This document shows, one piece after another, positions 1,830-38,720 of a stretch of 49,578 nt of DNA. Below the pieces are notes generated by a model, which had not been told where the DNA came from, made no database searches, and saw nothing but the letters and a program-made list of their open reading frames with translations. Both the position numbers and the translations under genes were made by a program. Position 1 is the first letter of the stretch, and every line of letters begins with the position of its first letter. The stretch covers positions 1 to 49,578 of the forward strand of contig SHZD01000015.1 in the NCBI GenBank assembly GCA_009692465.1, written 5' to 3'. Origin of the DNA: Myxococcales bacterium. GTDB taxonomy: Bacteria; Myxococcota_A; UBA9042.

Positions 1830-4800
1830 TCAAAAGTTACGGTGAAACATGGTCGTTATGCGGGTGCTGATGGTGCCATCCTTGGCTCCCAAGCTGCAGA
1901 CATTGATAAACCCGAGGATAGCGTTGGGGCCAACCACTGCGTCCGAGCCGCTCAAAGCGTTGCCAATGCACGTAGCGTTGTAAGTCGGCGGATCGAGTGT
2001 TAATTCCGTCCAGTAGGGGAAACCACTTTGGGTATTGACCACTTCGTCGTGGGCCAAGAACAACGGCAACCGGCTTTTGGCGTTGAGCGGATCGGGCTTA
2101 CTGCCCAACAGCAGCGTAAAGCTACCGATGTGCAACACACTTTTGAAGTGGTAGTTGGATTGGACTGCCTTGGTGACGACCGCGCTAAACAACCCAGTCG
2201 TGCCATTTTTTTCGTAGGCCACTAGGCCCGCCGGCCCCACTAGCCAGCGCGCCGTGCTGCCCGTTTGCGGGGCCAAAAAACTCGTATTCGCTTGCCAAAT
2301 CCCGCCGCTGGTCACCGATGATGCCGCATAGGATGGCCCCAGCTTGGTCGCATAGGTGCTGCTCCACGGCGCTTCGTAGCTGTTGACGGCTTGGTACAGG
2401 CCAGCAGTGCTGCTCTGCGCCAGCCCAAGCACCACGTGCACGGGGGTCGCTGGACACGTCAGGCATAGCGTGTGCGTGCGGATGCGCGAATCCGTCATGC
2501 GCAGCTCTGGCGCGTAGGCCTTGAGCGTGCACTTGACCGCCGCTGCCCCGTTGACGTCGCCAGAGCACTGCGCCAGCACCGAAACTTTATTGATCGCCGA
2601 AAATCCGACCAAGCCGACATGCAGCGTTGAGGCGATGATCTTGCTGTCGACTGCGTACCAGTCGGTCGAGGCAGGGGAGACGGTCTGCAGTGCCGCAAAG
2701 AACGGGTTGGAGGACCATTGCCAGACAGCGCTACCTTGCGGCGAGAACCACACCTGCGAGCCATAGCCCGAGATGATTTGGTCCGAAATTCCGGTCAAGG
2801 GCTTGGCGGCACTACCGGCGCTCATCACTTGCTTGAAGGTCCAAGCAGTGGTGCCGCTGTGGGCAAACAGCCCCCACGCACCGACGTCGGTGCTTGAGAA
2901 CTTGGGTTCGGCCAGAGACGTCGTGTAGTAACCCGCTGGGCTGACGGTCGCCGCCACCGCAGAGCTGGGCCCGACAGGTCCAGGGTAATAGGCAAAGCCC
3001 TTGCACACTTGCTTGTAGCAAAAGTCGGCGCTGGTCCCAGCGTTGCCATCCGAACACAAGCTGAAATCGGGCAGCAGGGATCCGGCTGCGCACTTGCCTG
3101 CGCCATCGCAGGCATCGCCGCTGGTACACGGATTGACGTCATCACAAGCAGTGCCCTTGGTTTGCGCTTGGGTCGTGCAGCCCTTCACGGCTTCGGCACA
3201 CACGGCGGTAGTGCAGGCTGCCGGTTTGCTACACAAGGGAGGCGCTCCGCCCACGCACTTGCCGGTGCCGTTGCACAGGTCGCCGGTGGTGCAAAACAGG
3301 CCGTCATCGCAGGCCGTCGTATTGACCTTGGGCACCTTTTTGCATGCCGCGACCCCAACATTGTCGTAACAGCTGGCGGTGTTGCAGGCGTCGGCACTGG
3401 CGGCACAATCGTACGGCTTGGTCGCGTCGGGCACGCAGGCCCCAGAAGCGTCGCAGGCGCTGGCCAACGAGCACGGGTTCTTGTCGTCGCACCCGGCACC
3501 CGAGGTGATGGTATTTTGGCACTTGTTGGTCACGCACTTGTCCGTGGTGCACACATTGCCGTCGTTGCAGCCACTGTCGGCGGTGCACTGGCAGGTGAAC
3601 GCCCCGGCTTGGCATTTGCCGGTGGCATCACATTTGTCGCCCGTAGTACAGGCATTGAGGTCGTCGCACACGCTGCCCGCCGTTGGCGTGTAGATGCAGC
3701 CCTTGATCGGGTCACAGCTGTCTTTGGTGCACGCGTTTTTGTCGTCGCAGACTAGAGGATTGGCGCCTTTGCACAGTCCTACCGCATCGCAGGCGTCGGT
3801 GCCGGTGCACACGCTGCTGTCGGTGCACGCCGCGCCGCTCGCTGCAGGCTTGGTGGCGCATTTGTTGTTTAATTCGTCGCAGGTGCCCACGGCGCAGTTG
3901 GCGTTGGGGCAATTGATGGTGGCACTGCCCACGCACTTGCCGAGGCTGTCGCAATGGTCCCCGGTGCTGCAATACAGCGTGTCATCGCAACCCACCGTCG
4001 TTGCTTTTGGCACTTTGAGGCACTGTTTCTTGGTTTCGTCGCAAGTGCCGGTATTGCATGCGTCGTTTTGCGCCGCACACGACAGCGTTGCCCCGGCCGT
4101 GCATTTGCCGGCCGCGTCGCAGGTGTCCGCCGCCGTGCAATACTTGTCGTCTTCGCAGGCGGTGCCGGCTGCTTTGGGCAACGCGTTGCACGAAAAGGTG
4201 CCAGGGCCCGTCGACTTGCACACGCCATCGGCACACGGTGAGGCCGAACCGGCACAGTTGGCCGAATTTCCCGGCGTGCACTTGCCGGCCACGCACTTGT
4301 CGGCTTGGGTGCAGCCATTGGCGTCGGCGTCGCAGGATAAGCCATCGGGCTTGTTGCTGGTTTCACACTTTCCCGTCGCCTGGTTGCATGCCGAAGCCTG
4401 ACAGACCCCAGGTGCAGTGCACGCAATCAGCTTGTTGGAGGTCTTGCACGCTCCGGCGCCGCACACGCCGCTGCCCGCCACCTGGCACTTGTCGCCGGTA
4501 TCGCAGGGTTTGCCGTCTTGCGGCGCGGTTGCATTGGTGCACGTGCTGGCGCTGCAGGTATCGACGGTGCACGCATTGCTGTCGTTGCAGCCGCTATCGT
4601 CCTTGCATTGGCACACGGTGGTCGCCGTGCATTTGCCGGCCGCGCACTTGTTTTGGGTGCACGGATCGCCGTCTTCGCACACCGCGGCGTCGTTGGCAGC
4701 AAACTTGCAACCAGCCGTAGTGTCACAGGTATCCGCGCTGCACGGGTTGCCATCGTCGCACTTGCCGCTGTTGCTAGTGTTGGTGCACGCGCCAGTCTTG

Positions 4801-6143
4801 GCGTCGCAGGCGTCGGTCGTGCAGGCCACGCTGTCGTCGCAATTCTTGGCGGCACCGCCGCAGGCGCCCTTGCTGCACTGGTCGCCGGTGGTGCAGGCGC
4901 TGGCGTCCGTGCACGCCCCGTCGTTGGGCACGTAGGTGCAACCGGCCTGGGCATTGCAGACGTCGTCGGTACACCCATTCTTGTCGTCGCACTTGATGTC
5001 AAAAAGGCCTTCGCACTTGCCGGCTTCGCAGGTCGAGATGCTCGAGCATGCGTTGGTGTCGTCGCAGCCTTTGCCGTCGTCGACTGGCACGACCCCACAG
5101 GCGCCCGTCTTGGCGTCACACAGGTTGAGCAAACACGACGAGCCGGTGTTGCCGTCGCAGACCACCGCTTTGGTGGGGTCCGAGACGCACACGCCAGCCG
5201 AGCAAGTCGGCGCGCCCAAGCACAAGTTGTCTTGCTTGCAGTCGGTGTCGACCTTGCACGAGCAGGTCGCAGTGCCGCCGCACACACCCTTGTTGCTGCA
5301 TTTGTCGTCACTGCTGCAGGCGTTGCTGTCGTTGCATTTGCCACCGGTGACAAAGCTGTCCACTTTACAACCACTTGTTTTATCACACTTTTGCGCGGTA
5401 CAGGCGTCACCGTCGTCGCAGTTGGTGTCTTTGGCTTGGGCGACACAGCCGACCTTGGGGTCGCAGGTGTCGGTGGTGCACTCAATGCCGTCCGAACATT
5501 GGACCGGCAGGCCCTTGCACACGCCTTGCACGCAGGTGTCATTGGCCAGACAGGCATCACCGTCGTCGCAAAACGCAGTCAAGTCGGTGATCGGTTCATA
5601 AATCACCGCATCCCCTTGATTGCAGTAGTCTTTGGTGCACGCGTTGTTGTCGTCGTAGTCCGTGGCAGAAGCGCCGACGCACAGTCCAACTTCACACTTG
5701 TGGCCGCAGGCGCCTGAACCACAGCCCGCGCCGTCTTTCTTATTGAAAATTGAGCAGATACCATTGTCGTTGCACGCCATGCGTTCACATTCTAGCGGCG
5801 CCAACGACGAGTCGATGCACGGCGCATTGGCCGGTTTCTTCTTTGTTATACACTTGCCAGCGTCACAAACCGGCGGCGAACAAGGATTTTTGCCCTTGAC
5901 CGTAGACGACAACACGCAGTCGAAGTCTGTTTCGCACTCGGCTGGGACATCCGCTGCGGCAGTGTCCACTGCGCCGTCCGCCTGGCCTTGATCGCCGGAG
6001 CCGTTATCCCCGGCGACGGTCGTGTCGGCGCTGCCGTCGGCGTCTTCACTGACACCCACAGTATCATCGATTTTGACCTCACCACAGCCGGCAATCAAAA
6101 TGGTGCCCGTGGCCAGCAATACTAGGGGGTACAAGTGTTTCAT
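1830..6143 (-). CDS. Very large Cys-rich lipoprotein with dozens of CDDGxxCTxDxCD-type repeats and a ~340-aa Cys-poor C-terminal region
   Basis: Start MKHLYPLVLLATGTILIAGC (lipobox IAGC) at 6143; repeats such as CDDGDACTAQKCDKTSGC; distinct C-terminus from about YYPGPVGPSSAV onward. Confidence 0.9.
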   Translation of the reverse strand: MKHLYPLVLLATGTILIAGCGEVKIDDTVGVSEDADGSADTTVAGDNGSGDQGQADGAVDTAAADVPAECETDFDCVLSSTVKGKNPCSPPVCDAGKCITKKKPANAPCIDSSLAPLECERMACNDNGICSIFNKKDGAGCGSGACGHKCEVGLCVGASATDYDDNNACTKDYCNQGDAVIYEPITDLTAFCDDGDACLANDTCVQGVCKGLPVQCSDGIECTTDTCDPKVGCVAQAKDTNCDDGDACTAQKCDKTSGCKVDSFVTGGKCNDSNACSSDDKCSNKGVCGGTATCSCKVDTDCKQDNLCLGAPTCSAGVCVSDPTKAVVCDGNTGSSCLLNLCDAKTGACGVVPVDDGKGCDDTNACSSISTCEAGKCEGLFDIKCDDKNGCTDDVCNAQAGCTYVPNDGACTDASACTTGDQCSKGACGGAAKNCDDSVACTTDACDAKTGACTNTSNSGKCDDGNPCSADTCDTTAGCKFAANDAAVCEDGDPCTQNKCAAGKCTATTVCQCKDDSGCNDSNACTVDTCSASTCTNATAPQDGKPCDTGDKCQVAGSGVCGAGACKTSNKLIACTAPGVCQASACNQATGKCETSNKPDGLSCDADANGCTQADKCVAGKCTPGNSANCAGSASPCADGVCKSTGPGTFSCNALPKAAGTACEDDKYCTAADTCDAAGKCTAGATLSCAAQNDACNTGTCDETKKQCLKVPKATTVGCDDTLYCSTGDHCDSLGKCVGSATINCPNANCAVGTCDELNNKCATKPAASGAACTDSSVCTGTDACDAVGLCKGANPLVCDDKNACTKDSCDPIKGCIYTPTAGSVCDDLNACTTGDKCDATGKCQAGAFTCQCTADSGCNDGNVCTTDKCVTNKCQNTITSGAGCDDKNPCSLASACDASGACVPDATKPYDCAASADACNTASCYDNVGVAACKKVPKVNTTACDDGLFCTTGDLCNGTGKCVGGAPPLCSKPAACTTAVCAEAVKGCTTQAQTKGTACDDVNPCTSGDACDGAGKCAAGSLLPDFSLCSDGNAGTSADFCYKQVCKGFAYYPGPVGPSSAVAATVSPAGYYTTSLAEPKFSSTDVGAWGLFAHSGTTAWTFKQVMSAGSAAKPLTGISDQIISGYGSQVWFSPQGSAVWQWSSNPFFAALQTVSPASTDWYAVDSKIIASTLHVGLVGFSAINKVSVLAQCSGDVNGAAAVKCTLKAYAPELRMTDSRIRTHTLCLTCPATPVHVVLGLAQSSTAGLYQAVNSYEAPWSSTYATKLGPSYAASSVTSGGIWQANTSFLAPQTGSTARWLVGPAGLVAYEKNGTTGLFSAVVTKAVQSNYHFKSVLHIGSFTLLLGSKPDPLNAKSRLPLFLAHDEVVNTQSGFPYWTELTLDPPTYNATCIGNALSGSDAVVGPNAILGFINVCSLGAKDGTISTRITTMFHRNF

Positions 6144-6169
6144 CGCAATTGCCTCAGCCTTTTCACATA

Positions 6170-6305
6170 GGAACTGTCCCAAGAATAAGTCATTGTGTGA
6201 CTGGTTCCGTTTGCTTGCTTTGTGGGTCGCTAAGCTCGCGTCCTGAAAGGCCGACTCGCCGCTTTCGTATTGCGTAAGTCAATCGAATTACTCAAGGACA
6301 GGTCC
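6170..6305 (+). repeat. Structured repeat family 1, copy A (MITE-like)
   Basis: GGAACTGTCCC...GTTTGCTTGCTTTGTGGGTCGCTAAGCTCGCGTCCTGAAAGGCCGACTCGCCGCT...AAGGACAGGTCC; TA on both flanks. Confidence 0.85.
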
Positions 6306-6559
6306 TAAAATGCAGGTCATGTGGGCGTTGATCGCAGTTCGCCAGTCCACAATGACGCGACAGTGTAGCCGGTCCAAAGCGGTTGACGCTAGCGTCGACA
6401 AGGGCCATCTTGTCAGGGGCGAATGTTGAAATCGCCCGCTCCTGCCGCACTTGATGGTCCGCTCTATCGGCAGTTAGGGCTCAAAATGAGCGGATTTCAG
6501 GTTGTTGGCAGCGCAGTCGATCTGGCGCCGCCTGCCGCATTTCGGCCTAGGAAGCAACC

Positions 6560-6805
6560 ATGTTTGAAGTCACTTTGCACGCCGTTGCCGCCAATGCAGT
6601 CGAGCGCGTTGAGCGCGTCGTGCACAAACACAGTGGCGGAAAATTGGACCATCTGGCCCGAGTTGCCCTTTTGGCCAAGGTCGCCGCCGGTCAGCCGCAA
6701 GTGATCGCTCGCTACCACGAAGAGCTGTGCGCCGCCAATGTGATCACAGAGCTCACCCTGCTGCGGGCTACGGCCAGCGTGGGCAAAACAGTGGAGGTCG
6801 CGTGA
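6560..6805 (+). CDS. Small protein (81 aa), possible ClpS / L7-L12 C-terminal-like fold; translationally coupled to moaA
   Basis: MFEVTLHAVAANAVERVERVVHKHSGGKLDHLARVALLAKVAAGQPQVIARYHEELCAANVITELTLL; stop overlaps the proposed moaA GTG start (GTGA). Fold suggestion by eye only. Confidence 0.55.
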   Translation: MFEVTLHAVAANAVERVERVVHKHSGGKLDHLARVALLAKVAAGQPQVIARYHEELCAANVITELTLLRATASVGKTVEVA

Positions 6806-7920
6806 CCATTCAGTCGGCGTGTTCTGCGCCCGTTGTCGGTTCGCAACCACCGGCGCAATTGGCACTTTCGCAGCTGCGGTTGGCAGGCAGCGCCCGCACC
6901 ACCGTGCCGCCCAACCCGTTTTCGCTAGTCGATTTACAAGCTCGGCGTGTCGAGTATTTGCGCGTGAGCGTAACCGACCGCTGCAACTACCGCTGTTCCT
7001 ATTGCATGCCGGCCGAGGGCGCCAGTGTGGTTCCGCGCTTGGACTTGCTCAACTTTGACGAAATTACCACGCTGGTGCGGCTGTTTGTCGATTTGGGGAT
7101 CCGCAAAGTGCGCATTACCGGCGGAGAGCCGCTGGTTCGACGCGACATTGTCCGGCTGGTCGGCCAAATCGCGGCGATTCCCGGCGTGCAAGACCTGTCG
7201 ATGACCACCAACGGTCACCTGCTGGCAGACTTGGCCAAGCCGTTGCGCCAAGCCGGATTGCAGCGATTGAACGTCTCGATCGACACCTTGGACGCCCAGC
7301 GGTTTGCCATCGTGACGCGTCAGGGATCGCTGGCCGCAGTGCTGCGCGGGCTGCAGGCGGCCGACGCTGCCGGTTTTACCCACACCAAACTCAACGCGGT
7401 GGTGTTGCGCGGGCTCAACGACGACGAACTGGTGGCCCTGGCCGACTTTGCCAGTGATCGGGGCTACATCTTGCGTTTTATCGAGTACATGCCGATCGGC
7501 GTCGACAACTTTTGGGGGCCGGAGACCTTTTTGCCGATCGCTCAAGTCCGCGAACAATTGGCCACAGCGTGGCAGTTGACCGCCCAAGACGACCATGGTC
7601 TGCCGGGCGGTGGTCCGGCACGCTACTGGACCGCGGTCCGGCGCGATAATCCGGCGCGCACGCTGCGTTTGGGCTTGATCGCGGCCGTCAGCGAAAAGTT
7701 CTGCCAACTGTGTAACCGCGTGCGATTGTCGCCGACGGGGACCCTGCGCGAATGCTTGTCGACTGCGGGGTCGCTCAGTTTGCGCGACCTGCTGCGCGGC
7801 GGCCAGAGTGGCACGGTAGTGCGCAACGCGATCGCGGCTGCCTTGCTCGGCAAAGTCGACGGCCACCGGTTTGACCAGGCCCAGCCGACGCTGGAATCGA
7901 TGTCGGCCATCGGTGGCTGA
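6802..7920 (+). CDS. moaA: GTP 3',8-cyclase MoaA (molybdenum cofactor biosynthesis, radical SAM)
   Basis: CNYRCSYC radical SAM motif, ITGGEPLVRRD, C-terminal FCQLCNRVRLSPTGTLRECL cluster and terminal IGG. Confidence 0.95.
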   Translation: MTIQSACSAPVVGSQPPAQLALSQLRLAGSARTTVPPNPFSLVDLQARRVEYLRVSVTDRCNYRCSYCMPAEGASVVPRLDLLNFDEITTLVRLFVDLGIRKVRITGGEPLVRRDIVRLVGQIAAIPGVQDLSMTTNGHLLADLAKPLRQAGLQRLNVSIDTLDAQRFAIVTRQGSLAAVLRGLQAADAAGFTHTKLNAVVLRGLNDDELVALADFASDRGYILRFIEYMPIGVDNFWGPETFLPIAQVREQLATAWQLTAQDDHGLPGGGPARYWTAVRRDNPARTLRLGLIAAVSEKFCQLCNRVRLSPTGTLRECLSTAGSLSLRDLLRGGQSGTVVRNAIAAALLGKVDGHRFDQAQPTLESMSAIGG

Positions 7921-13753: not shown

Positions 13754-15790
13754 TTAGCGCACGAAAACCCACGCCAGCGCCGCGGTCTTGGCATCGCCCC
13801 AATCGGGGCCCCAGCAGGCCAAGTTGCCCACGGTTGGCACCTCAGTGGCGCCACAGATCGTGGCCGTGGCCCCGACGCCAATCCATGAATCGACGCTGCC
13901 GCAGTCCTTTTCGTTGTTGCCAAAGATGCCGATTCGCGCTTTGACGCCGTTGGCTGCGGCGGTGTTGAAACCCTGCAGCAGGCAATGCGCTTGCAGTGAG
14001 CCAGTGGGCAGCAGGCTCTCCCACACCAACACCGGCAATTGGGTCTTGGTTGTCGCGGCAGTGAGCAGCGCGCGCAAACTGGCGGCCTGAACCGCAAACT
14101 CGATAGCGCGAACCGTGCCGCTGACCACCATCGCCACCCGCACATTTTTGACGGCAATTGTGCTGTAGCCGCCTAATCGTGCGGTAGAATTGTCAGGGAA
14201 AACACTCGCGCCGGCCGTCGGGGTCGCCTCGGTCCACAGCGGACTGGCATAAGCGCCGTCGGCCTTACTGCCGTCGACCTTGAGCACCAACGTCCAGCCG
14301 TTTTCGCAATAGGCGGCAAACGGCGCGTTTGGACCCAGCGCGCCATCGGGGTCGAGCAAGTGGACGCCTTTGTCCGTGATCGCGGTGCAACTTGTGGCAA
14401 TTGTACTCAGATCGACTGGCTTGGTCCATTGACAATAGCCGCTGCCGCACACGCCAGTGCCGCCACAGGCGCCGCCCTCTTGGACCGCCGTATGCCCGCA
14501 GCCTAAATTGACCGCGCAACCGTCCAGCGTGCACGGGTTGGCGTCGTCGCAGCTGACGGTAGGGGTGGGCGCGGCTGCGAACTGGCAACTGCCGTTGGCG
14601 CATGTGTTTTGCGCCGTACACAGATTGCCGTCGTCGCACAGACTTTGCAGCGGGCGCACGCACACCGCGCAGCTGAGCTTGGCACCTTCGGGCAGGTCGT
14701 TCCAGCCGCCGTCGGGCACCATCTCGACCGCGTCCTCGTTGCCATAGTCGTTGGGCTCGCCGCCATTCCAGTTGCCAAAGGCGCTGCCTAGGCCGTTGGC
14801 CCACACGAATTTGCCCTCTTGCGCGCGATCGTTCAGGCCAATCCACGCCGACGCTTTGCCGCAGGCCGCGTCCGCCACCTTGCGACCCAGCGCGTTGTCG
14901 TCGGCGTTGCGCAAACCGGCCAATTCACCCCCCCATTTCTGGCAGTTCTTGCGGGCCTGAGCCCAGTTGCTGTCAGCTTTGAGCGCCCCAAAGCACCAAC
15001 CTTGGGCCTGCGCGCCATCGCAACTGGTAATCGGCGCTGGCAAGGGCAGAAATTCACAGCCGACCTTAGGGTCACAGCCGTCGTAGGTGCAGCTCTTGCC
15101 GTCGGTGCACGGCTTGCCTTTGCCCTGCACGCATTGGCCCAACAGGCAATACGAAGCTTCAACACAGTCGTTTGCGTCTGAGCACTTGGCCGTGCTGGCC
15201 GCAAATTGGCAGCCTTGGCCGACCACGCAACTGTCGGCGGTGCAGCCATTGCCATCGTCGCAGGTCGCCGGCTTGCCGTTTTGGCAGGCGCTGTTGCCAC
15301 AGGTGTCGCCCAGGGTGCACGGATTGCCATCTTCGCACCAGTGGTCCTGCGCACTGTGGCTGCAATCGCCAGCAAGGCTGCACCAGTCGGTTGTGCACAC
15401 GTTGGCGTCGTCGCAATTGACCGCCGTCGCCGGGCCGCAGATGGCGTCCTGGCAGGTCATGCCCCACGTGCACGGGTCACCGTCGTCGCAGTCGCTATCT
15501 TGCTCGCACGGACAGGTTTCGCCGCCTGGGCAGTCGCCGCGGCCCTTGATCGCAACTACCGGCCTGGCATCGGCGCTGGCGTCCACCGGCACCACCCATT
15601 CGTCGTCAGGGGCATCGGCCGCCACTTCCGCTGCGATATCGGGTGGTTGGCGCAGCGCGTCGGCAACTTCGGTCGGTGCATCGGTGCTGACGGCAGCGTC
15701 AGGCACCACCGCCGCGGTTGGGTCGGCACAACCACAAAGCGCGACCGCGATCAGCCCTGCAATTCGTGCCCACCCTGCTGTGCCGGCCAT
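13754..15790 (-). CDS. Cys-rich lipoprotein with C-type lectin domain and fibrinogen-like C-terminal region
   Basis: MAGTAGWARIAGLIAVALCGC lipobox; CDDGNxCT repeats; CTLD 'WIGLNDRAQEGKFVW..NWNGGEPNDYGNEDAVEM..GGWND'; 'GVHLLDPDGALGPNAPFAAYCENGWTLVLKVDG'. Confidence 0.85.
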   Translation of the reverse strand: MAGTAGWARIAGLIAVALCGCADPTAAVVPDAAVSTDAPTEVADALRQPPDIAAEVAADAPDDEWVVPVDASADARPVVAIKGRGDCPGGETCPCEQDSDCDDGDPCTWGMTCQDAICGPATAVNCDDANVCTTDWCSLAGDCSHSAQDHWCEDGNPCTLGDTCGNSACQNGKPATCDDGNGCTADSCVVGQGCQFAASTAKCSDANDCVEASYCLLGQCVQGKGKPCTDGKSCTYDGCDPKVGCEFLPLPAPITSCDGAQAQGWCFGALKADSNWAQARKNCQKWGGELAGLRNADDNALGRKVADAACGKASAWIGLNDRAQEGKFVWANGLGSAFGNWNGGEPNDYGNEDAVEMVPDGGWNDLPEGAKLSCAVCVRPLQSLCDDGNLCTAQNTCANGSCQFAAAPTPTVSCDDANPCTLDGCAVNLGCGHTAVQEGGACGGTGVCGSGYCQWTKPVDLSTIATSCTAITDKGVHLLDPDGALGPNAPFAAYCENGWTLVLKVDGSKADGAYASPLWTEATPTAGASVFPDNSTARLGGYSTIAVKNVRVAMVVSGTVRAIEFAVQAASLRALLTAATTKTQLPVLVWESLLPTGSLQAHCLLQGFNTAAANGVKARIGIFGNNEKDCGSVDSWIGVGATATICGATEVPTVGNLACWGPDWGDAKTAALAWVFVR

Positions 15791-15951
15791 CTGCCCTTCA
15801 GTTGCCCATCGCGGGCGCCGCATGGTCCCCATTTTCGCAGGCCTTTGCAATGCGCATTGTGCTGGAGGCACAGTCCTGTGGGCGCAAACTTGCCCGTCGG
15901 TAGCGCAATGGTACGCTGCGGTCGCCGTACTGTTGCGGCTTGGGGTTCAGT

Positions 15952-16745: not shown

Positions 16746-16838
16746 CTAATTGCGGCGACAAGTGGCCGGGCCATGCTTGTGCGTGCTACGTTCCGCGCCG
16801 TTTTGCAGCCCCACCTGAGCGGCTGCGCGCGCCGAAAC

Positions 16839-19553
16839 ATGACCGACACTTCGATTAACCTAGCAGAAATACTACCTAAAAACTACGATCACCGCGAAGT
16901 CGAGCCGCGCTGGGTGCAGGCGTGGGAGGCCAGCGGCCTGCACCACTACCGGCCCGACAGCGCCGCCGCCCGCGCCGGTCGCACCTTCGCCATCGACACC
17001 CCGCCGCCGTACGTCAGCGCTGCGCATTTGCACACTGGCCACGCCATGTCGTACTCGCAGGCCGAATTCGTGGTGCGTTTCAAGCGCATGCGCGGCTACG
17101 AGATCTTTTATCCGATGGGTTTCGACGACAACGGGCTGCCCACCGAACGCTACGTCGAACAGAAATACAAGATCAACAAGGGCAAGATTTCTCGTAAGGA
17201 ATTCATAGATTTATGCCTAAAGGAGACCCGCGACGGCGCCGCCGTCTACGAAACGCTGTGGCGCAGCTTGGGGTTGTCGATCGACTGGCGGATGACCTAC
17301 TCGACCATTGCGCCGCGGGCGGTGCGCCACGCCCAGCACAGCTTTTTGGACTTGGTGAACAAGGGTCGCTTGGAGCGCCGCGTCGACCCGATTTTGTGGT
17401 GCCCCCTGTGCAGTACCGCGTTGGCGCAGGCCGACGTCGAATCAGGCGACGAGCAAAATCGGCCGATGCACGCGGTGCGCTTTGACGTCGACCCCGCTGC
17501 GCTGGTGGTCGGCGGGCCGACGAGCGGCCTCATCGAAACCACTAGGCCGGAACTGGTGCCCGCTTGCGTGGCGCTGGCCTGTCATCCTGACGATAAAAGA
17601 TTCAAGACCTTAGCCCAAGTGCGTTTTCAGGTGCCGCTGACCGATCTGAGGTTTGCAAAATCGGAAATTGCCAGCGATGACGGCACTGTGGCCAGTACCG
17701 GCGACGTGACCCGTGGCGACTACCGCACCATACCACTGATTTTTGACGAGTCGGTCGATCCGGAGTTTGGCACCGGCCTGATGATGGTCTGCACTTTTGG
17801 CGACCCCGAGGACATCGCCAAGTGGCGCAAACACAAGCTTGACACCGTGCTGATTATTGACGCTCAAGGGCGGATGATTACACCACATTTGCCCGATTTG
17901 GACGGCAAACGCGTCTACGTCGCCGCCAAAAACTCCAGTGTCTACAACGAGGCGCGGGCCGCAGCCTTGCAACTGCTGCGCGATCACAACTACTTGGAGC
18001 ACATCAAGGACAACGTGTCGCGGGCGAGCCTGCACGAGCGCTGCAGTACCCCCGTTGAAATTCAGGTTGCGCCGCAGTGGTTCATTCGCCTACTCGATCT
18101 GAAGGACCAATTGCTGCAACGTGGCCGCGATTTGGTGTGGAATCCGCCTGCGATGCGCGAGCGCTACGAGCAGTGGGTGGTCAACCTGCGCTGGGATTGG
18201 AACATTTCGCGCCAGCGCTTCTACGGTGTGCCCTTTCCGCTGTGGTTTTGCACAGCGTGTGAGGCGCCCAACTTTGCCCAGCTTGATGAATTGCCCATCG
18301 ATCCACTGATGACTTCCTGCCCAAGGCCGTGCAGTGCTTGTGGCTGTGCCGACTTACGTCCTGAGCCGGACGTGATGGACACTTGGATGACGTCGAGCCT
18401 GACCCCGCTCATCAACGCCAACTGGGCGATGTGGCAGGACCAGCCGGACCCGTCGTTGCCCTTGGCGGAACAAGCGCGGTCGGCCATCTACCCTGCGGGC
18501 ATTCGCGTTCAAGCCCATGAAATTATTCGAACATGGCTGTTCTATACCGTGGCCAAATCCCATCTGCACACCCAGTCGCTGCCGTGGCAAACGGTCATGA
18601 TCTCGGGCTGGGGCCTTGATCGGCACGGCAAGAAGATGAGCAAGCGGCTGGGCAACTTCGTCGAGCCGGGCGAGGTGATCGCCAAGTATGGCGCGGATTC
18701 ATTGCGGTATTGGGCTGCCGGCGCGACCTTGGGTCAGGACCTGCGCTACTTGGAAGACGACGTCAAAGGTGGCAAGCGCTTGCTGACCAAGTTGTGGAAT
18801 TCTACCCGTTTTGCCCTGTTGTACCTGTCCAATTGGCAGCCGGGCCAAGTGGCGCAAACGCCGACTGCCGCCGATCGCTGGATTCGATCGCGCGCGGTGC
18901 AAACCGTGCAAGCGGCGACCGAGGCCTTTGAGGGCTGTGAATACAACCGTGCCGTCCGCGCCGCCGAAGGCTTTTTTTGGAACGATTGGTGCGATAACTA
19001 CTTGGAAATCGTCAAGGATCGCTTTCGCGAAGGCACCCCGTTCGCTGGTGGCGAAGTCGAGGCTGCCCGGCACACACTGCTGCACGGTTCGTTTTTGCTG
19101 TTGCGGCTGTTTGCGCCGATTTTGCCATTTCTTACCGAGGAGTTGTACCAGTTGGCGCTCAAGAACCTGCTCGGCCCCGACGCCCCGCAATCGGTGCACA
19201 GCGCCGCGTGGCCGCAGGACGAACACAGCGGGCAAGTGACAGTGTTTGCAGGAGAGTTTTCAGCCGAGGCGCTGACTCAGGGTGAATTGCTGCTGGCGCT
19301 AATCGCCGCCGTGCGCAGTTGTCGCACCGCTGCCAAAATCGGCGGCGGACGGCCGCTCAGCGGCTTGTATGTGTGTGCCGATGCTCAGCAATGGGCGCAG
19401 CTTGAGCCGTTGCTGCCCGATTTTGTTGCGGCCTCGCGGGCGACTGGTTGTGAACGTGGCATCGCTGCGGACCTGGCCAGCGCTGAGGTGGCCGGGACGA
19501 CGCTCGCGGTGGCGATTGTGCCGCTAGTCGACGTGGTCGCCCAAGGCGAATAG
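16839..19553 (+). CDS. valS: Valyl-tRNA synthetase, archaeal/type-2-like
   Basis: LPKNYDHREVEPRWVQAWEASG, IDTPPPYVSAAHLHTGHAMSYSQAEFVVRFKRMRGYEIFYPMGFDDNGLPTERYVE, KMSKRLGN; ATG at 16839. Confidence 0.92.
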   Translation: MTDTSINLAEILPKNYDHREVEPRWVQAWEASGLHHYRPDSAAARAGRTFAIDTPPPYVSAAHLHTGHAMSYSQAEFVVRFKRMRGYEIFYPMGFDDNGLPTERYVEQKYKINKGKISRKEFIDLCLKETRDGAAVYETLWRSLGLSIDWRMTYSTIAPRAVRHAQHSFLDLVNKGRLERRVDPILWCPLCSTALAQADVESGDEQNRPMHAVRFDVDPAALVVGGPTSGLIETTRPELVPACVALACHPDDKRFKTLAQVRFQVPLTDLRFAKSEIASDDGTVASTGDVTRGDYRTIPLIFDESVDPEFGTGLMMVCTFGDPEDIAKWRKHKLDTVLIIDAQGRMITPHLPDLDGKRVYVAAKNSSVYNEARAAALQLLRDHNYLEHIKDNVSRASLHERCSTPVEIQVAPQWFIRLLDLKDQLLQRGRDLVWNPPAMRERYEQWVVNLRWDWNISRQRFYGVPFPLWFCTACEAPNFAQLDELPIDPLMTSCPRPCSACGCADLRPEPDVMDTWMTSSLTPLINANWAMWQDQPDPSLPLAEQARSAIYPAGIRVQAHEIIRTWLFYTVAKSHLHTQSLPWQTVMISGWGLDRHGKKMSKRLGNFVEPGEVIAKYGADSLRYWAAGATLGQDLRYLEDDVKGGKRLLTKLWNSTRFALLYLSNWQPGQVAQTPTAADRWIRSRAVQTVQAATEAFEGCEYNRAVRAAEGFFWNDWCDNYLEIVKDRFREGTPFAGGEVEAARHTLLHGSFLLLRLFAPILPFLTEELYQLALKNLLGPDAPQSVHSAAWPQDEHSGQVTVFAGEFSAEALTQGELLLALIAAVRSCRTAAKIGGGRPLSGLYVCADAQQWAQLEPLLPDFVAASRATGCERGIAADLASAEVAGTTLAVAIVPLVDVVAQGE

Positions 19554-19573: not shown

Positions 19574-20514
19574 TTACGGACCTTTTGTGCAAGTCTGCAC
19601 TCCGATTTCACCCTCGGTGGCGGCCAGCACGTTGGAACTCAACTGCGTAATCGCGCCCTTGCCGCCCTTATTCAGCAACATCATGTAGAGTTTGCCGTTT
19701 GGATGCAGGCAGTTGCCGGTCAGCGTCGCGACCATCGCCCCTTTGCCGTCGCTGGTGCCTTTGACCTTGGCGTCGGCCACCACCGCCCCGCCGTCCATCA
19801 GGCTAAGCTGAGCGGGCTGCCCTTTGCGCAACGCGAGTGAAACTTCGGGCGGCGCGCCACCGCCAAAACCACCGATACCGGCAGCTGCCTCTGCTTTCCA
19901 GCGGATCTGCACCGCTTTGGCGTCCGTTGGCGCGTTGAGCCAAAACTGCACGTAACCGGGGACGTCGTCGCCGTGCCCACACAGGCCAAGCGCGCGAGCA
20001 ACGGCAATTTGAGCCGGCACCACTGAAACTAGCGGGGCGGCGAGCGGCTCGATCGGCAGCATATCGCTGGTTACTGCACGAATCGCCCGCTGACTGTCGA
20101 GCGTAACCGTCAAGCTGCGGTCTAGGACCGGAGCGCGCCGCTGGCCAACTGTGCAGCTGTAGACCAAATGGACGGCAATTGCCGCCTTGCTGCGGACCAC
20201 CCGCTGAACGGTCAGGCCTTCGGGGTCAATTCCCCATAAATCCGCGTGACTTTGGCGAAAGCCAGCGCCGTGGCTTGCGCTGTTGCTGCGCTAGCTGTGG
20301 GCGCAAAACCAGTCAACAGCGCTGGACCGGCCAGCGTCTCCGTCCAAGTCGCATCTAAGTCGCGGTGTTGACTGCGCAGCGCCGCAACGCGGGTCTGCGC
20401 TGCGCGGCGCACGTGGGCAAATGCCGACGCCGGAGCTGCGCTCGCTTCGGTCGCGGTGCTTTGCGCCACGATTGCCAAAAGTAAGGTAGCCAACCGAAGT
20501 AGTTTTGCAGACAT
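19574..20514 (-). pseudogene. Secreted FTP (fungalysin/thermolysin propeptide)-like protein interrupted by an apparent -1 nt frameshift
   Basis: ORF A (MSAKLLRLATLLLAIVAQ...TASAATAQATALAF) continues in another frame as RQSHADLWGIDPEGLTVQRVVRSKAAIAVHLVYSCTVGQ...; HADLWGIDPEGL resembles the FTP consensus HADLFGLDP. Switch near 20257-20260. Confidence 0.7.
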
Positions 20515-20675: not shown

Positions 20676-21407
20676 CTACTTCTTGACTTCCAATTGCGCC
20701 AGACAATGGACAATTTCAGCGGCAAACAGTTCGGCGTCGCGCGGCCAGCGGGCGGTGATCAAATTGCCGTCGCGCACCGCAAATGGGACCCACGGGGCAC
20801 GCCCCGTCAAGAACTGCTTTGGCGATGCTAGATTGCGGGTCACTTCGGCCTGAACCCACTCCGGATAGGTGCGGTAGTAGTCGCCCAGCCGCCAGGCCGT
20901 AGCCGCCCAACCACTGAATTCTAGGGATTTTGTCAGCGCGGTGCACTGCCGGTCTGCCAAAACCGAGCGACCAGTGCGGTTGTCGATGGTGCGCGCCAAC
21001 ACCACCACGCCGTGGCAAATCGCCGCCACCAGCTTGTTCGCCTGCCAAAACGCCAACACCAAGCGCCGCAGCGCTTCGCTCTCCAAGTATTGGCGCATGC
21101 CTTTGGCGTGGCCACCGGGCAGGATGACGGCCGAAAACGCCTCCGCGCTGACTTCGGCCAGCGCCAACGGCTGGCAGAATTCTGGCGACTGGCGCAGGCG
21201 GTCAAAGCGCTCCAAAGCGTCGGGTTCAGCCCCGAGTTGGCCGAACAGCACGCCGGTCAGCAACAGCGGGTCGGCCTGCGCAGCCTGGGCATTTTCGGTG
21301 GCAAAGGCCACCCGAAAGCCCGCTTCGCGCAGTCGATGCCAGGGAGTGGCGACCTCGGTCGGATCGAAATCGCAATTGGGCAAACAAATCAAGATGGCGC
21401 GTGGCAA
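20676..21407 (-). CDS. DJ-1/PfpI (type 1 glutamine amidotransferase-like) protein
   Basis: ILPGGHAKGMRQYLES; nucleophile elbow AAICHGVVVLA. Confidence 0.85.
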   Translation of the reverse strand: MPRAILICLPNCDFDPTEVATPWHRLREAGFRVAFATENAQAAQADPLLLTGVLFGQLGAEPDALERFDRLRQSPEFCQPLALAEVSAEAFSAVILPGGHAKGMRQYLESEALRRLVLAFWQANKLVAAICHGVVVLARTIDNRTGRSVLADRQCTALTKSLEFSGWAATAWRLGDYYRTYPEWVQAEVTRNLASPKQFLTGRAPWVPFAVRDGNLITARWPRDAELFAAEIVHCLAQLEVKK

Positions 21408-21455
21408 ACTGGCTCTCCGTGACTAGATGGGCTGGCGTGACTACCTGCCTTGCGG

Positions 21456-21565
21456 TAGCCCTGCGCGGTGGGTTCTGTAGCCCTGCGCGGTGGGTTCTGT
21501 AGCCCTGCGCGGTGGGTTCTGTAGCCCTGCGCGGTGGGTTCGGTAGCCCTGCGCGGTGGGTTCGC
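21456..21565. repeat. 22-bp minisatellite (tagccctgcgcggtgggttctg) x5
   Basis: Units at 21456, 21478, 21500, 21522, 21544; last two have TTCGG/TTCGC ends. Confidence 0.95.
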
Positions 21566-23873: not shown

Positions 23874-23993
23874 GATTCACGGGTTGGCCATTCGGGGGTT
23901 GGCCATTCGGGGGTTGGCCATTCGGGGGTTGGCCATTCGGGGGTTGGCCATTCGGGGTTGGCGATTCACGGGTTAGCGATCGTGGGGTTGCCG
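23874..23993. repeat. ~15-bp minisatellite (cattcgggggttggc), about 8 units including edge variants
   Basis: gattcacgggttggc, then cattcgggggttggc x4, a 14-bp variant, gattcacgggttagc, gatcgtggggttgc. Confidence 0.93.
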
Positions 23994-25078
23994 TTGGTCG
24001 TTGGCAGACCGAAAGGTGGTGGTGCCGGTCGCGCAGCCAACTGTCCGCACGCCCCCCCGACTTGTTGGCCATGCGGGTGGCGAACCATCGCCCGAATGCC
24101 GCCATCGAGCAAGTGCTTGTGAAAAGCCCAGATGCTGGACCGACTTGGCGCGCCAAGCGCAGGATCCGGGCCCGGATTGGCAATAATCAGGTTGACCCGC
24201 GCCGGCACTCCAGTTAGCCACTGCATCAGCAAGTCCGCGTCGGCCAGAGCATCGTTGTGCCCGCCGAATAAGATGTACTCGATCAGGACTTCGCGACCGC
24301 TAGGTAGATGCTGAACAATCGCACTTTTGAGCGCGGCCAGATCGCACCGATCGTTGATCGGCATCCATTGTGCTCGCCGCCGATCGTCGGGCGCATTCAG
24401 ACTGACCGCTAAGTTGGCGCGGACACTGGCAAAGAACTGCGGCAGCTTCCAAGCCACCCCGACCGTGCTGACCGTCACTTTGCGCCACGCCAGCCCCGCC
24501 GCGAGGTCGTCCGTCATCACCGCCACCGCATTGGCGACCGCCTCCAAGTTGTCCAATGGTTCGCCCATCCCCATGAACACCACATTGCTGATCGGCGGAC
24601 TACCGGCGGCAACCTGAGCCCACAGGCGCTGGGCCAGCAGCAGCTGGGTGGTGATTTCAGCGGCGCTCAAGTTGCGGGACAGGCCGAGCCGACCCGTTTC
24701 GCAAAACACGCAGCGGCGGCCACAACCGACCTGACTGGAGACGCACAACGTGGTGCGGCTGTCATCGGATGCAGGGATAATCACCGCTTCGATGAACTGG
24801 TCATCCGCCAAACGCACAAGCAGCTTGCGGGTGCCGTCGGTGTCCACGAGTTGGCGATCCACCACCATTGGCGGCAGATCGCCCGCTGTGGCCAGCAGCG
24901 CCGCCCTAGCCTGGCGACCCAAGCCGTCAGTGGCTGCGGCCCAATCCAGTCCGAGGTGCCAGATCGCCTTGCCAACGTGGTTTACCACTTGGCGCGCCTG
25001 ATTCGCCCGCAGCCCTCGCTGCTGCAAGGCCATTGCCAGCCGTTGGGGTGGCCAAGCCAAGATCGATTGCACGTCCAC
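23966..25078 (-). CDS. RlmN/Cfr-family radical SAM methyltransferase
   Basis: CGRRCVFCETG motif, VVFMGMGEPLDN, ACGQL near C-terminus; C-terminal tail NGNPTIANP is encoded by the edge of the minisatellite. Confidence 0.87.
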   Translation of the reverse strand: MDVQSILAWPPQRLAMALQQRGLRANQARQVVNHVGKAIWHLGLDWAAATDGLGRQARAALLATAGDLPPMVVDRQLVDTDGTRKLLVRLADDQFIEAVIIPASDDSRTTLCVSSQVGCGRRCVFCETGRLGLSRNLSAAEITTQLLLAQRLWAQVAAGSPPISNVVFMGMGEPLDNLEAVANAVAVMTDDLAAGLAWRKVTVSTVGVAWKLPQFFASVRANLAVSLNAPDDRRRAQWMPINDRCDLAALKSAIVQHLPSGREVLIEYILFGGHNDALADADLLMQWLTGVPARVNLIIANPGPDPALGAPSRSSIWAFHKHLLDGGIRAMVRHPHGQQVGGACGQLAARPAPPPFGLPTTNGNPTIANP

Positions 25079-34190: not shown

Positions 34191-35109
34191 CGGTTCAAGG
34201 GGTAAGGCAGTCGACTTGGCCGAACACGGCATCGAAGTCTCGCGCATCGAAGCGCTGCCCGACCGCCGCCGCGGCGTAGCCCTGATGGTGACGGGCGCCC
34301 TGTGCTTTGCGGCGATGGCCGCGCTGGCCAAGGCCGCCAGCGCCGAGATCCCCACTTTTGAAGTTGTCGCCGTCCGCTCAGCGGTCACACTGGCGGTGAT
34401 GGAAGGGCTGCGTCGCCGGTTGGGCGCCAAGCTGCAGTTTTTCGACCTGCCCATACTCGCCTCAAGGACGATCGCGGGATTTGTGGCAATCGCATGTTAT
34501 TTTCACGCTTTGCGCATTATCCCGCTGGGCGAAGCGGTCCTGCTCAACAGCATGTCGCCGGTGCTGACTGCGGCGGGTGCTGTGTGGTTTCTTGGCGAAA
34601 AAATGACGTGGTTTCGTGTGGTTGCCATCGCGATCTCCGTCACGGGCCTGTGGCTACTGCTCGGTGCCCGCGACTTGGGAACGCTGCAAGGGCAAGGCGC
34701 GCTGATTGGTGCGGCTTCAGCGTTGGCCTCGGCGTGGGCATTGATATCCCTCAAGAAGGCTGGCAAGCGCAATCGTTCGCTGCTCATCGTGTGGGCGTTG
34801 GCGTTGGTGTCAACGGTTGGTTCACTGCTGTTTGCCGACAGTCGCTGGCAAGTCCCCGATGGCCAGGAAGCGTTCTTGCTGCTGGCGACTGGAGTGTCGG
34901 CGGCAGTGGCCCAGTTGCTGATGACCAGCGGCTACCGGCTGCTCGATGCCAGCGAGGCCAGCGTCTACGGCTTTTTGACCCCGCTGTTTTCGATGGTGTT
35001 GGGCGGTGTGTTGTTTGCCGAGTGGCCCCATCAGCGGGCGATCTTCGGTGGCGTGTTGATTCTGGGTGCCGGCATCGGGCTGGCTCTGCGGGTCGGCGAG
35101 CGCAAGTAG
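34171..35109 (+). CDS. DMT-family (EamA/RhaT-like) transporter
   Basis: Ten-TM-like protein with two EamA halves (ALMVTGALCFAAMAALAKAAS..., ...EASVYGFLTPLFSMVLGGVLFAEW). Start uncertain, possibly inside the repeat. Confidence 0.85.
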   Translation: MLGPVDFGSRGKAVDLAEHGIEVSRIEALPDRRRGVALMVTGALCFAAMAALAKAASAEIPTFEVVAVRSAVTLAVMEGLRRRLGAKLQFFDLPILASRTIAGFVAIACYFHALRIIPLGEAVLLNSMSPVLTAAGAVWFLGEKMTWFRVVAIAISVTGLWLLLGARDLGTLQGQGALIGAASALASAWALISLKKAGKRNRSLLIVWALALVSTVGSLLFADSRWQVPDGQEAFLLLATGVSAAVAQLLMTSGYRLLDASEASVYGFLTPLFSMVLGGVLFAEWPHQRAIFGGVLILGAGIGLALRVGERK

Positions 35110-35168
35110 AATTTGCCAGTGGCGACTGCACTTGGTCATGCTTGGGTCTCAATGCCAGTGGCGGCCGG

Positions 35169-35344
35169 CCCAAATTCCCCATCGAGATCCCCGCGGCCTC
35201 CGATTTGGGATGCCAGTGCCCTGTCACTCGCTGTCGCTCGACAAGGAACAAGGAGCTTTTCGCCCGGTGGCGTACTCGCGTACGTCGCTGGGCGAAAAGC
35301 GACGCAGTGACGCCGAGCTGCGCCCAAAGCGGGGATCGCGGCCG
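35169..35344 (+). repeat. Structured repeat family 2, copy 3
   Basis: CCCAAATTCCCC..CCCCGCGGCCTCCGATTTGGGATGCC...GCTTTTCGCCC/GGGCGAAAAGC...GCGCCCAAAGCGGGGATCGCGG. Confidence 0.85.
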
Positions 35345-35400
35345 GCATTTTGCCTTGCGGCCCGTCGCCACCCCACGCATAATGGCGGCCGGAGGCTCAA

Positions 35401-37369
35401 CTTGATTGCACAATTCACCGCCAATTCGAGCATTCGGACCGCGCTGTGGGCAATTGCGTTCGGCCTAGCGCCGGTGCTGGGATGCGCCGATGTAGGGGAC
35501 CTGACCCCAGCCAGCGCGCCTGACACCACCTACGCCACCCTGCACGCGCCGCTGACCTTTGCCTGCAAACAGACCAACGCCACCGGCTACGTCAATGGCA
35601 AAGCCTTTACCATTCAAGTGGTGACCGTCGACGGCAAGCCGGTCGAGACCAAAACCGCCAACGCCTACATCGTGATGGCGCAAGCCGCGGCCAAGGCCGG
35701 GATCAAGCTGCAAATCATCAGTGGTTTTAGGACGATGGCCGAGCAGCAGTATTTTTACAACTGCTACAAGTGCTGCTGCTGCAACTCGTGCAACCTCGCC
35801 GCCAGCCCTGGGTACAGTAACCACCAATCAGGCCACGCGCTGGACTTGAATACCTCCGCGGCGGGCGTGTACAACTGGCTCAATACCCACGGAAAAACCT
35901 ACGGCTTTAAACGTACGGTGCCGTCTGAGGCCTGGCACTGGGAGTGGTGGGGCGGCGGGCCCGGCGGCGGGCCGTGCGGAGACGCCGACGGCGACGGTGT
36001 CTTGGACGAGGTCGACAACTGCCCCAAAGTGGCCAACAAAGGTCAAGCCGACAGTGACAAGGACAAGAGCGGTGACGCCTGTGACGATGACGATGACAAT
36101 GACAAGATCTTGGACGCCAAGGATAATTGCGACTTTGTCAAGAATGCCGACCAGCTGGATACCGACAAGGACAAGACCGGCGATGCCTGCGATACCGACG
36201 ACGACAACGACAAGATTTTGGATACAAAGGATAATTGCGACTTGGTGGTCAACGCCAGCCAATTGGACACCGACAAGGACGGCAAGGGTGACCCATGTGA
36301 TGATGACGATGATGGCGACAAGATCCTAGACGGTAAAGATAATTGCCCGTTAGTTGCCAACTCGGGCCAGCTGGACAGCGACAAAGACGGCAAGGGCGAC
36401 GCCTGCGAAACCGACGACGACAACGATGGCGTGCTCGATGCCAACGACAACTGCCCGCTGGCTAAGAACGCCAGCCAGACCAACAGCGACGACGACAGCA
36501 AGGGCGACGCCTGCGACGACGACGACGATGATGACAAGGTTTTGGATTCAAAGGACAACTGCCCGCAGCAAGCCAATCCCAACCAAGCTGACTACGACAA
36601 AGATGGCTTGGGCGACCCGTGCGATGGCGACAAGGATGACGACGGCGAGCCCGATGCCAGTGACGTCTGCCCATTTGCTGCCGATCCGACCCAAACCGAC
36701 ACCGACGGCGATGGTCTGGGCGACGCTTGCGATGGCGACGACGACGGTGATGCGGTAGCCGATACCGTTGACAACTGCCCGCTGGCAGACAATCCGACCC
36801 AAACCGACATCGACAGCGACGGCTTGGGCGATGCGTGCGACACCGACAGCGACAACGACGGCGTCAGTGACAGCGACGACAATTGCCCGCTGGTCGCCGA
36901 TGGCAGCCAAAAAGACAGCGACGGCGACGGCATTGGCGATGTCTGCGATGCGGTGGGCGAGCCCGATCCCGCCACGGACGGTGGCGTAGCAGACGTGGGC
37001 GGTGGTGGCGAAATCACGGTAGCCGATGCCGGGAAAGCGAATGACAGCGCCCAATCTTCCGATCTAAACGGCAGTTCTGAAACCGGAGCAGAAACAATTG
37101 CCGCTAGCGACGTAGTGGCCACCGCAGACGACACTGTCGCTGACAAGGGTGCGTTGGCCGATGGCGCTGGGTCCAAAAGCGGCGAGGCAGGGGTCGGCGC
37201 GCCGGACGTTGCGGTCACGGCGGCGGCGGCGGCGGTCCAACCGGCAACGGCAGACTCGGGGTGTACAGCCAGCAGTCGCGGCCCGTTCGGCGGCTGGTTG
37301 GCGTTGCTGATGCCTGTGCTGTTTGGACTGTTCTGGCGACGGCGCTGCGCGGGCGCCGCGGTCCTCTAA
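35401..37369 (+). CDS. M15 D-alanyl-D-alanine carboxypeptidase with C-terminal thrombospondin type 3 repeats and MYXO-CTERM-like sorting tail
   Basis: SNHQSGHALDLN...EAWHWEWWGG; DADGDGVLDEVDNCPKVAN-type repeats (~11); tail SGCTASSRGPFGGWLALLMPVLFGLFWRRR. TTG start at 35401 inferred. Confidence 0.85.
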
Positions 37370-37387
37370 CGCGGTTTTAGGCCTTTA

Positions 37388-37522
37388 GGAACTGTCCCAG
37401 AATAAGTCATCGTGGGACTGGTTGCGTTTGCTTGCTTTGTGGGTCGCTAAGCTCGCGTCCTAAAAGGCCGACTCGCCGCTCCTGTGTTGCCCAGATCGAT
37501 CGAGTTATTTGAGGACAGTTCC
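37388..37522 (+). repeat. Structured repeat family 1, copy B (MITE-like)
   Basis: TTA-GGAACTGTCC...GGACAGTTCC-TTA with full core. Confidence 0.92.
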
Positions 37523-37525
37523 TTA

Positions 37526-37660
37526 GAAACTGTCCCAGAATAAGTCATTGTGGGACTGGTTGCGTTTGCTTGCTTTGTGGGTCGCTAAGCTCGCGTCCTG
37601 AAAGGCCGGCTCGCCGCGCCAGTGTTGCGCGAGTCGATCGAGTTATCTAAGGACACATCC
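37526..37660 (+). repeat. Structured repeat family 1, copy C, tandem with copy B
   Basis: Shares the TTA junction with copy B; GAAACTGTCC...GGACACATCC-TTA. Confidence 0.9.
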
Positions 37661-38720
37661 TTAGTGCGCCGAATAGGCGCGGATGCACCCGCAGGTACAG
37701 CCACGTTCCAACCACGGTGCCCACCAGCGTCAGGGCCAGCGCCATTGGCGTCGGCAAGTCGCGGCACGCCAACCAAGTCAGCCGTAACCACAGGACATGG
37801 CTCAGGTAGACCGCCAGCGACTGGCGGCCAATCAGCGCTAACCCAACACCCAACGCCATCGACCGCAGCTGGCGGGCCACTGGCGGCCCCCACAGCGCAA
37901 ATGTCAGCGCGCCGTAGACCATCGCTGGACTGCACCAAAAATCGTCAAAGCGCGGCGAGCTTTGCGGCCGCACCGCAATCCACAGGTGGACGGCCAGCGC
38001 TGGCACGGCCAGTTTTGGCAACCACGCTGGCGGCCGCCAACCCAGTGTAATCAATCGCCCTATCGTGGCGCCGACCGCAAAAAAACCAAACCAGTGCAAC
38101 GGCGTGCGCGCCTCCGTGTGCAGGAGAAACCCGGTGATGCCGCGCACCATCAGCCCGGACTGCACCGCGCTCTGCACGCTCGCCAACAGCGCCCAGTTTG
38201 CCAACAGCGCGCCTGTCCCCACGGCGATGGCGACGACCGCCCCGCCGCTACGCAGCAGCAAGCCCAGCAGCGGAGCCACCAACAGCAAGCCAAAATAGGC
38301 CGTCATGTAATAGAGTTGCTCGCTACCGTAGCCGAAAATCGCGCTCAGGATCCGGCCCGGCCACGGCAAGTCGCCGCCCAGCAAGGCCACTCCTTGAGCG
38401 TCCATGGGTGCCATAAAGGCATACCCAAAGGCCCAAGCCAAGTACGGCCAGCCCACCGCCCGCCAACGCCTGCCCAGCCACGCCGACCAATTATCAATCA
38501 GAACAGCGTCTTTTCCGACGCTCCAGCCCAGCACCGCCAGGAACAGCGGCACCCCAAACCGACTCAGGTGATCGGTGACCCGACCTGCCGCATACAAGGG
38601 ATCCTGCGGACCAATGCGCGCCACTAGGTGGATGACGACCACCCCGACCATCGCTAGGCCGCGCAGGATATCAATCTGCGGGTTGCGCAAGTGTGGTGAC
38701 GCGGTCGGTTGTGGGGACAA
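37647..38720 (-). CDS. Acyltransferase-3-like multi-TM protein
   Basis: NPQIDILRGLAMVGVVVIHL, SRFGVPLFLAVLGWSVGKD; last codons and stop lie in repeat copy C. Confidence 0.82.
   Translation of the reverse strand: MSPQPTASPHLRNPQIDILRGLAMVGVVVIHLVARIGPQDPLYAAGRVTDHLSRFGVPLFLAVLGWSVGKDAVLIDNWSAWLGRRWRAVGWPYLAWAFGYAFMAPMDAQGVALLGGDLPWPGRILSAIFGYGSEQLYYMTAYFGLLLVAPLLGLLLRSGGAVVAIAVGTGALLANWALLASVQSAVQSGLMVRGITGFLLHTEARTPLHWFGFFAVGATIGRLITLGWRPPAWLPKLAVPALAVHLWIAVRPQSSPRFDDFWCSPAMVYGALTFALWGPPVARQLRSMALGVGLALIGRQSLAVYLSHVLWLRLTWLACRDLPTPMALALTLVGTVVGTWLYLRVHPRLFGALRMCP

Follow-up and report, generated by a model that had tools for sequence, protein, structure and literature searches.

In the M4 and M36 zymogens the propeptide, with its FTP and PepSY domains, is joined to the catalytic domain in one chain. 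In vibriolysin MCP-02 and in fungalysin it lies over the active site and helps the enzyme to fold. Two other systems use a separate protein in such a role. SUB1-ProM of Plasmodium is a stand-alone subtilisin propeptide-like protein that inhibits its protease in trans (PMC6993865). Lif, the lipase-specific foldase of Burkholderia, comes from a gene of its own and acts as a steric chaperone on a secreted enzyme (PMC3352829).

In this work we analysed a locus within a 49,578-nucleotide stretch of DNA (the window) from an uncultured Myxococcota lineage. Many of the named relatives of this lineage are bins from lake metagenomes. The intact operon found in relatives codes first for a secreted FTP/PepSY propeptide-like protein (gene 1) and then for a lipoprotein zinc protease of M36/M4 fold (gene 2). 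This pair resembles the M4/M36 zymogens in the propeptide fold, in the HExxH...E catalytic fold and in the propeptide-then-protease order. It differs from them in that the clade to which the remnant in the window belongs has two genes and two proteins, that the protease of the clade bears a lipobox cysteine, and that the copy in the window has no catalytic domain. Gene 1 shares with SUB1-ProM a propeptide-like product with a gene to itself, which lies beside protease genes, but SUB1-ProM is of the subtilisin family and not of M4/M36, it is eukaryotic, and the subtilases there retain their own propeptide (PMC6993865). By analogy, gene 1 would also resemble Lif as a chaperone-type protein encoded apart from the secreted enzyme. 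The enzyme served by Lif is, to our knowledge, unrelated to the gene 2 protease, and we know of no evidence of homology. The locus in the window is very probably a deletion-fusion pseudogene of this two-gene operon, recently broken and carrying an additional frameshift.

Structure of the locus

The locus lies on the minus strand, running from 20514 to 19574, and its translation meets an early stop in one frame (frame A), while the -1 frame (frame B) continues past it. The frame A ORF (20212..20514, minus strand) has 100 amino acids and a stop, MSAKLLRLATLLLAIVAQSTATEASA...ATALAFAKVTRIYGELTPKA, and carries the signal peptide and the N-terminal part of the propeptide gene; its amino acids 87-100 are an out-of-frame tail. 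The Sec-type signal peptide MSAKLLRLATLLLAIVAQSTATEASA (approximately 20437..20514, minus strand), already recognized in a first-pass annotation of this DNA, is seen in the translation, and the signal peptides of the relatives lie at the same place. Frame B (20290-19574, minus strand) includes RQSHADLWGIDPEGLTVQ and ends in TCTKGP and a stop codon.

In single-locus searches, frame A matched gene 1 up to ALAF (E 3e-12 against G001/L026 and 2e-7 against G002/L025), and frame B matched the same gene from RQSHADLW onwards (E 3e-15 against G004/L024). The end of frame A homology and the start of frame B homology place the frameshift at 20254..20262 (minus strand), in agreement with the -1 break previously put near 20258. 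Alignment to homologues, which had been proposed as a check, gave a continuous gene 1, open across this position in five relatives (G004, G002, G001, G003 and G007). As both frames match one gene that is uninterrupted in these five genomes, the frameshift is real in the given sequence.

A second lesion became apparent when the frame B protein was searched against 53 genomes, several of which gave two groups of matches. Residues ~10-104 of frame B match the small gene 1; this remaining FTP/PepSY propeptide-like part, RQSHADLWG...ALGLC (19979..20262, minus strand), has 42-45% identity to gene 1 of G004 (E 3e-15), and the similarity ends at residue 104, near 19979. Residues 108-236 match the C-terminus of gene 2, with 63% identity over 129 amino acids in G004 (E 2e-45) and 61% in G002. 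This C-terminal domain of an M36-like protease, including the stop codon, occupies 19574..19969 (minus strand), in frame with the propeptide part. The two matches are 1,565 bases apart in G004 (gap 7455-5891, L024) and 1,529 bases apart in G002 (gap 5938-7466, L025). At the deletion junction (19970..19978, minus strand) the locus lacks approximately 1.5-1.6 kb that is present in the relatives, comprising the end of gene 1, the start of gene 2 and the whole gene 2 catalytic domain. The frame stays open through the junction, for which the chance is 1 in 3. At the DNA level only the C-terminal part of the locus aligns with the relatives, at 70% identity.

The description of the locus as FTP-propeptide-like therefore holds only for the first ~190 residues, which resemble the fungalysin/thermolysin propeptide (FTP/PepSY), and fails for the last ~130, which are the C-terminal domain of another protein. 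If the frame were open, its product would not be the stand-alone propeptide first proposed but a chimera, in which the N-terminal part of gene 1 runs into the gene 2 C-terminal domain and the catalytic domain is lost; annotation of the locus as a 'stand-alone FTP-like protein' would be false. No family, including FTP and PepSY (PF07504, PF03413), was found on the window pieces with Pfam (E up to 5) and NCBIfam. The HExxH zinc site and catalytic domain are present neither at the locus nor elsewhere in the host's own genome, so that the metalloprotease domain is indeed missing, as noted earlier. The search for the gene 2 catalytic domain elsewhere in the assembly returned only the C-terminal piece, and neither the propeptide part nor the C-terminal part has a convincing second copy in this genome.

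The convergent neighbour of the locus is a valyl-tRNA synthetase-like gene, valS (16836..19553, plus strand). In G004 and G002 valS (76% and 74% identity, respectively) adjoins gene 2 of the unbroken pair, and the two converge as they do in the window, which indicates a loss in place, as seen from the valS side at least. On the other flank lies a DJ-1/PfpI-like gene, at 20676, which is absent from G002 and G004. In the same-genus genome G005 a contig end cuts valS, and the site is not covered. The internal deletion and the frameshift relative to the intact orthologues, together with the valS synteny, bear out the pseudogene among the options first considered.

The intact gene pair of the relatives

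The gene 1 product is a secreted FTP/PepSY propeptide-like protein of ~230 amino acids (stop-to-stop frames of ~240-370 codons). In a Pfam search of 13 gene 1 relatives (E<=1), FTP was found in 6 (best 1e-8) and PepSY in 7 (best 1e-4). The model of G004 gene 1 (pLDDT 88) matched best the YpeB C-terminal domain, the vibriolysin MCP-02 propeptide (E 6e-7) and the Aspergillus fungalysin propeptide (E 6e-4), the foldseek hits being 3nqz_A, 3nqy_A, 4k90_B and 5boi; as the TM-scores are moderate (0.36-0.49), the resemblance is at the level of the fold.

Gene 2 starts with a lipoprotein signal, the lipobox cysteine of which is invariant in 17 sequences. It carries HEYTH...NEGFADYF, with HEYTH and the third ligand, Glu277 (E277), invariant in the same number of sequences, and it scores above the Pfam M36 cut-off. 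Its model (mean pLDDT 82) matches aureolysin (E 2e-10), pseudolysin, thermolysin and M36 proteases. Judged by sequence and model, the predicted product is a lipoprotein and zinc protease of M36/M4 fold that also has a beta-rich domain of its own at the C-terminus.

By analogy with the zymogens, gene 1 probably acts on the gene 2 product outside the cytoplasm. The propeptide protein, exported separately, would aid folding of the protease and/or keep it inactive in trans, a mechanism that we infer for the intact pair.

Origin and age of the lesions

In the reading that we favour, a deletion of ~1.5-1.6 kb would have fused the front of gene 1 with the stretch of gene 2 that encodes its C-terminal domain, eliminating the HExxH catalytic domain, and a separate -1 frame break would end translation after 100 codons. 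Each lesion by itself would leave no complete pair. The order and the age of the lesions, as well as the loss of function, are inferred.

Relative to G004, the C-terminal piece has 36, 30 and 64 changes at codon positions 1, 2 and 3, respectively. Its pN to the outgroup G001 is 0.383, vs 0.385 for the intact G004 gene, with synonymous sites near saturation. As the C-terminal piece shows no sign of decay, either the lesions are recent or the fused product had a use for some time. The GC content at third positions is 0.60-0.65 in the propeptide part, vs 0.65-0.79 in other genes, which is a weak hint of drift. In a separate tree of frame B the window sequence lies on a long branch, so that the two rate tests disagree for the propeptide part; the frame A and frame B trees are both poorly supported. 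The gene closest to frame A (20257-20514) is that of G001 (44% identity), whereas the best match of both frame B and the C-terminal piece is in G004 (42-45% and 63%). A mosaic history is thus possible, on this poorly supported evidence.

Either lesion could also reflect faulty assembly or variation between strains. The first alternative is that the locus was collapsed or mis-joined during metagenome assembly and/or lost a base there, and that the organism has the intact pair. The draft genome is fragmented, in 294 contigs, and the undecayed C-terminal piece would fit such an artefact. It would, however, need two independent errors within 0.3 kb of an otherwise clean 49.6-kb contig, the other long ORFs of the window (some 42 kb) having no similar break by inspection. 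The catalytic domain is on no other contig of the assembly, and the open frame across the junction also speaks against an error, which we therefore regard as improbable, while taking it more seriously than any other alternative.

The in-frame junction, the lack of any extra stop in frame B and the conservation of the C-terminal piece could also be read in favour of a functional fusion, in which the propeptide part and the protease C-terminal domain would form a secreted inhibitor or binding protein and the frameshift would be an error or very recent. Such a propeptide-CTD fusion was found in none of the 52 related genomes, the target protease is gone from the host's own genome and the frame is broken; we give this explanation little credence. 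Programmed frameshifting to the full protein, raised in the first-pass annotation, has in its favour only that the frame change is -1, and it can be set aside almost entirely, given the single open frame at that site in the relatives and the lack, by inspection, of a canonical X_XXY_YYZ slippery heptamer in frame at 20255-20262.

Origin of the split layout

Scanning 84,980 species genomes yielded 80 loci. In 33 of these, mostly from Myxococcota (L064-L098, L103 and L114), the gene 1 profile matches a distinct ORF directly upstream of gene 2, and in 30 distant loci it matches the protease's own ORF, ahead of the protease. The 'same ORF' label covers 42 rows, 11 of which received it by default, the profile having found no propeptide; L143 was matched in both places. 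In a tree of 77 catalytic cores, the root of which is not known, all 31 'separate' loci that could be included fall to one side of a branch supported at 99/99, a side that also holds 4 loci cut by contig ends.

These sequence comparisons suggest that a zymogen underwent one gene fission in Myxococcota; since the one-chain form occurs across many phyla, a single event is the simplest reading. On balance we lean towards the view that the source operon arose when the gene of an M36/M4 zymogen split, once only, within Myxococcota, that the separate propeptide must find a surface lipoprotein protease and fold or inhibit it in trans, and that the genome of the window illustrates one way of losing the pair. 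The open-access literature gave us the subtilisin and lipase parallels but no split M4/M36 propeptide; an earlier report elsewhere is possible.

If this is so, the intact relatives offer a natural system with a thermolysin/fungalysin-type propeptide as a separate protein, in which the chaperone and inhibitor roles of the propeptide could be studied without cutting a zymogen by hand. They matter more than the broken gene, which shows that one lineage has lost a secreted protease.

Elsewhere in the window, tandem repeats were observed at 21455-21563 (22 bp, 5 copies) and at 23881-23990 (15 bp, 7.4 copies), the latter overlapping the 3' end of a radical SAM (RlmN-like) ORF (23966-25078). Two large proteins encoded on the minus strand (1830-6182 and 13754-15871) have Cys-rich Dicty_CTDC repeats, and one of them has a C-type lectin domain. 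Within the ORF at 35066-37369 (plus strand), 108-bp repeats at 36074-36860 encode thrombospondin type 3 repeats, and the same protein has a VanY-type domain. Directly after this TSP_3/VanY protein, at 37385-37664, a 138-bp unit is present twice, the two copies being 90% alike.
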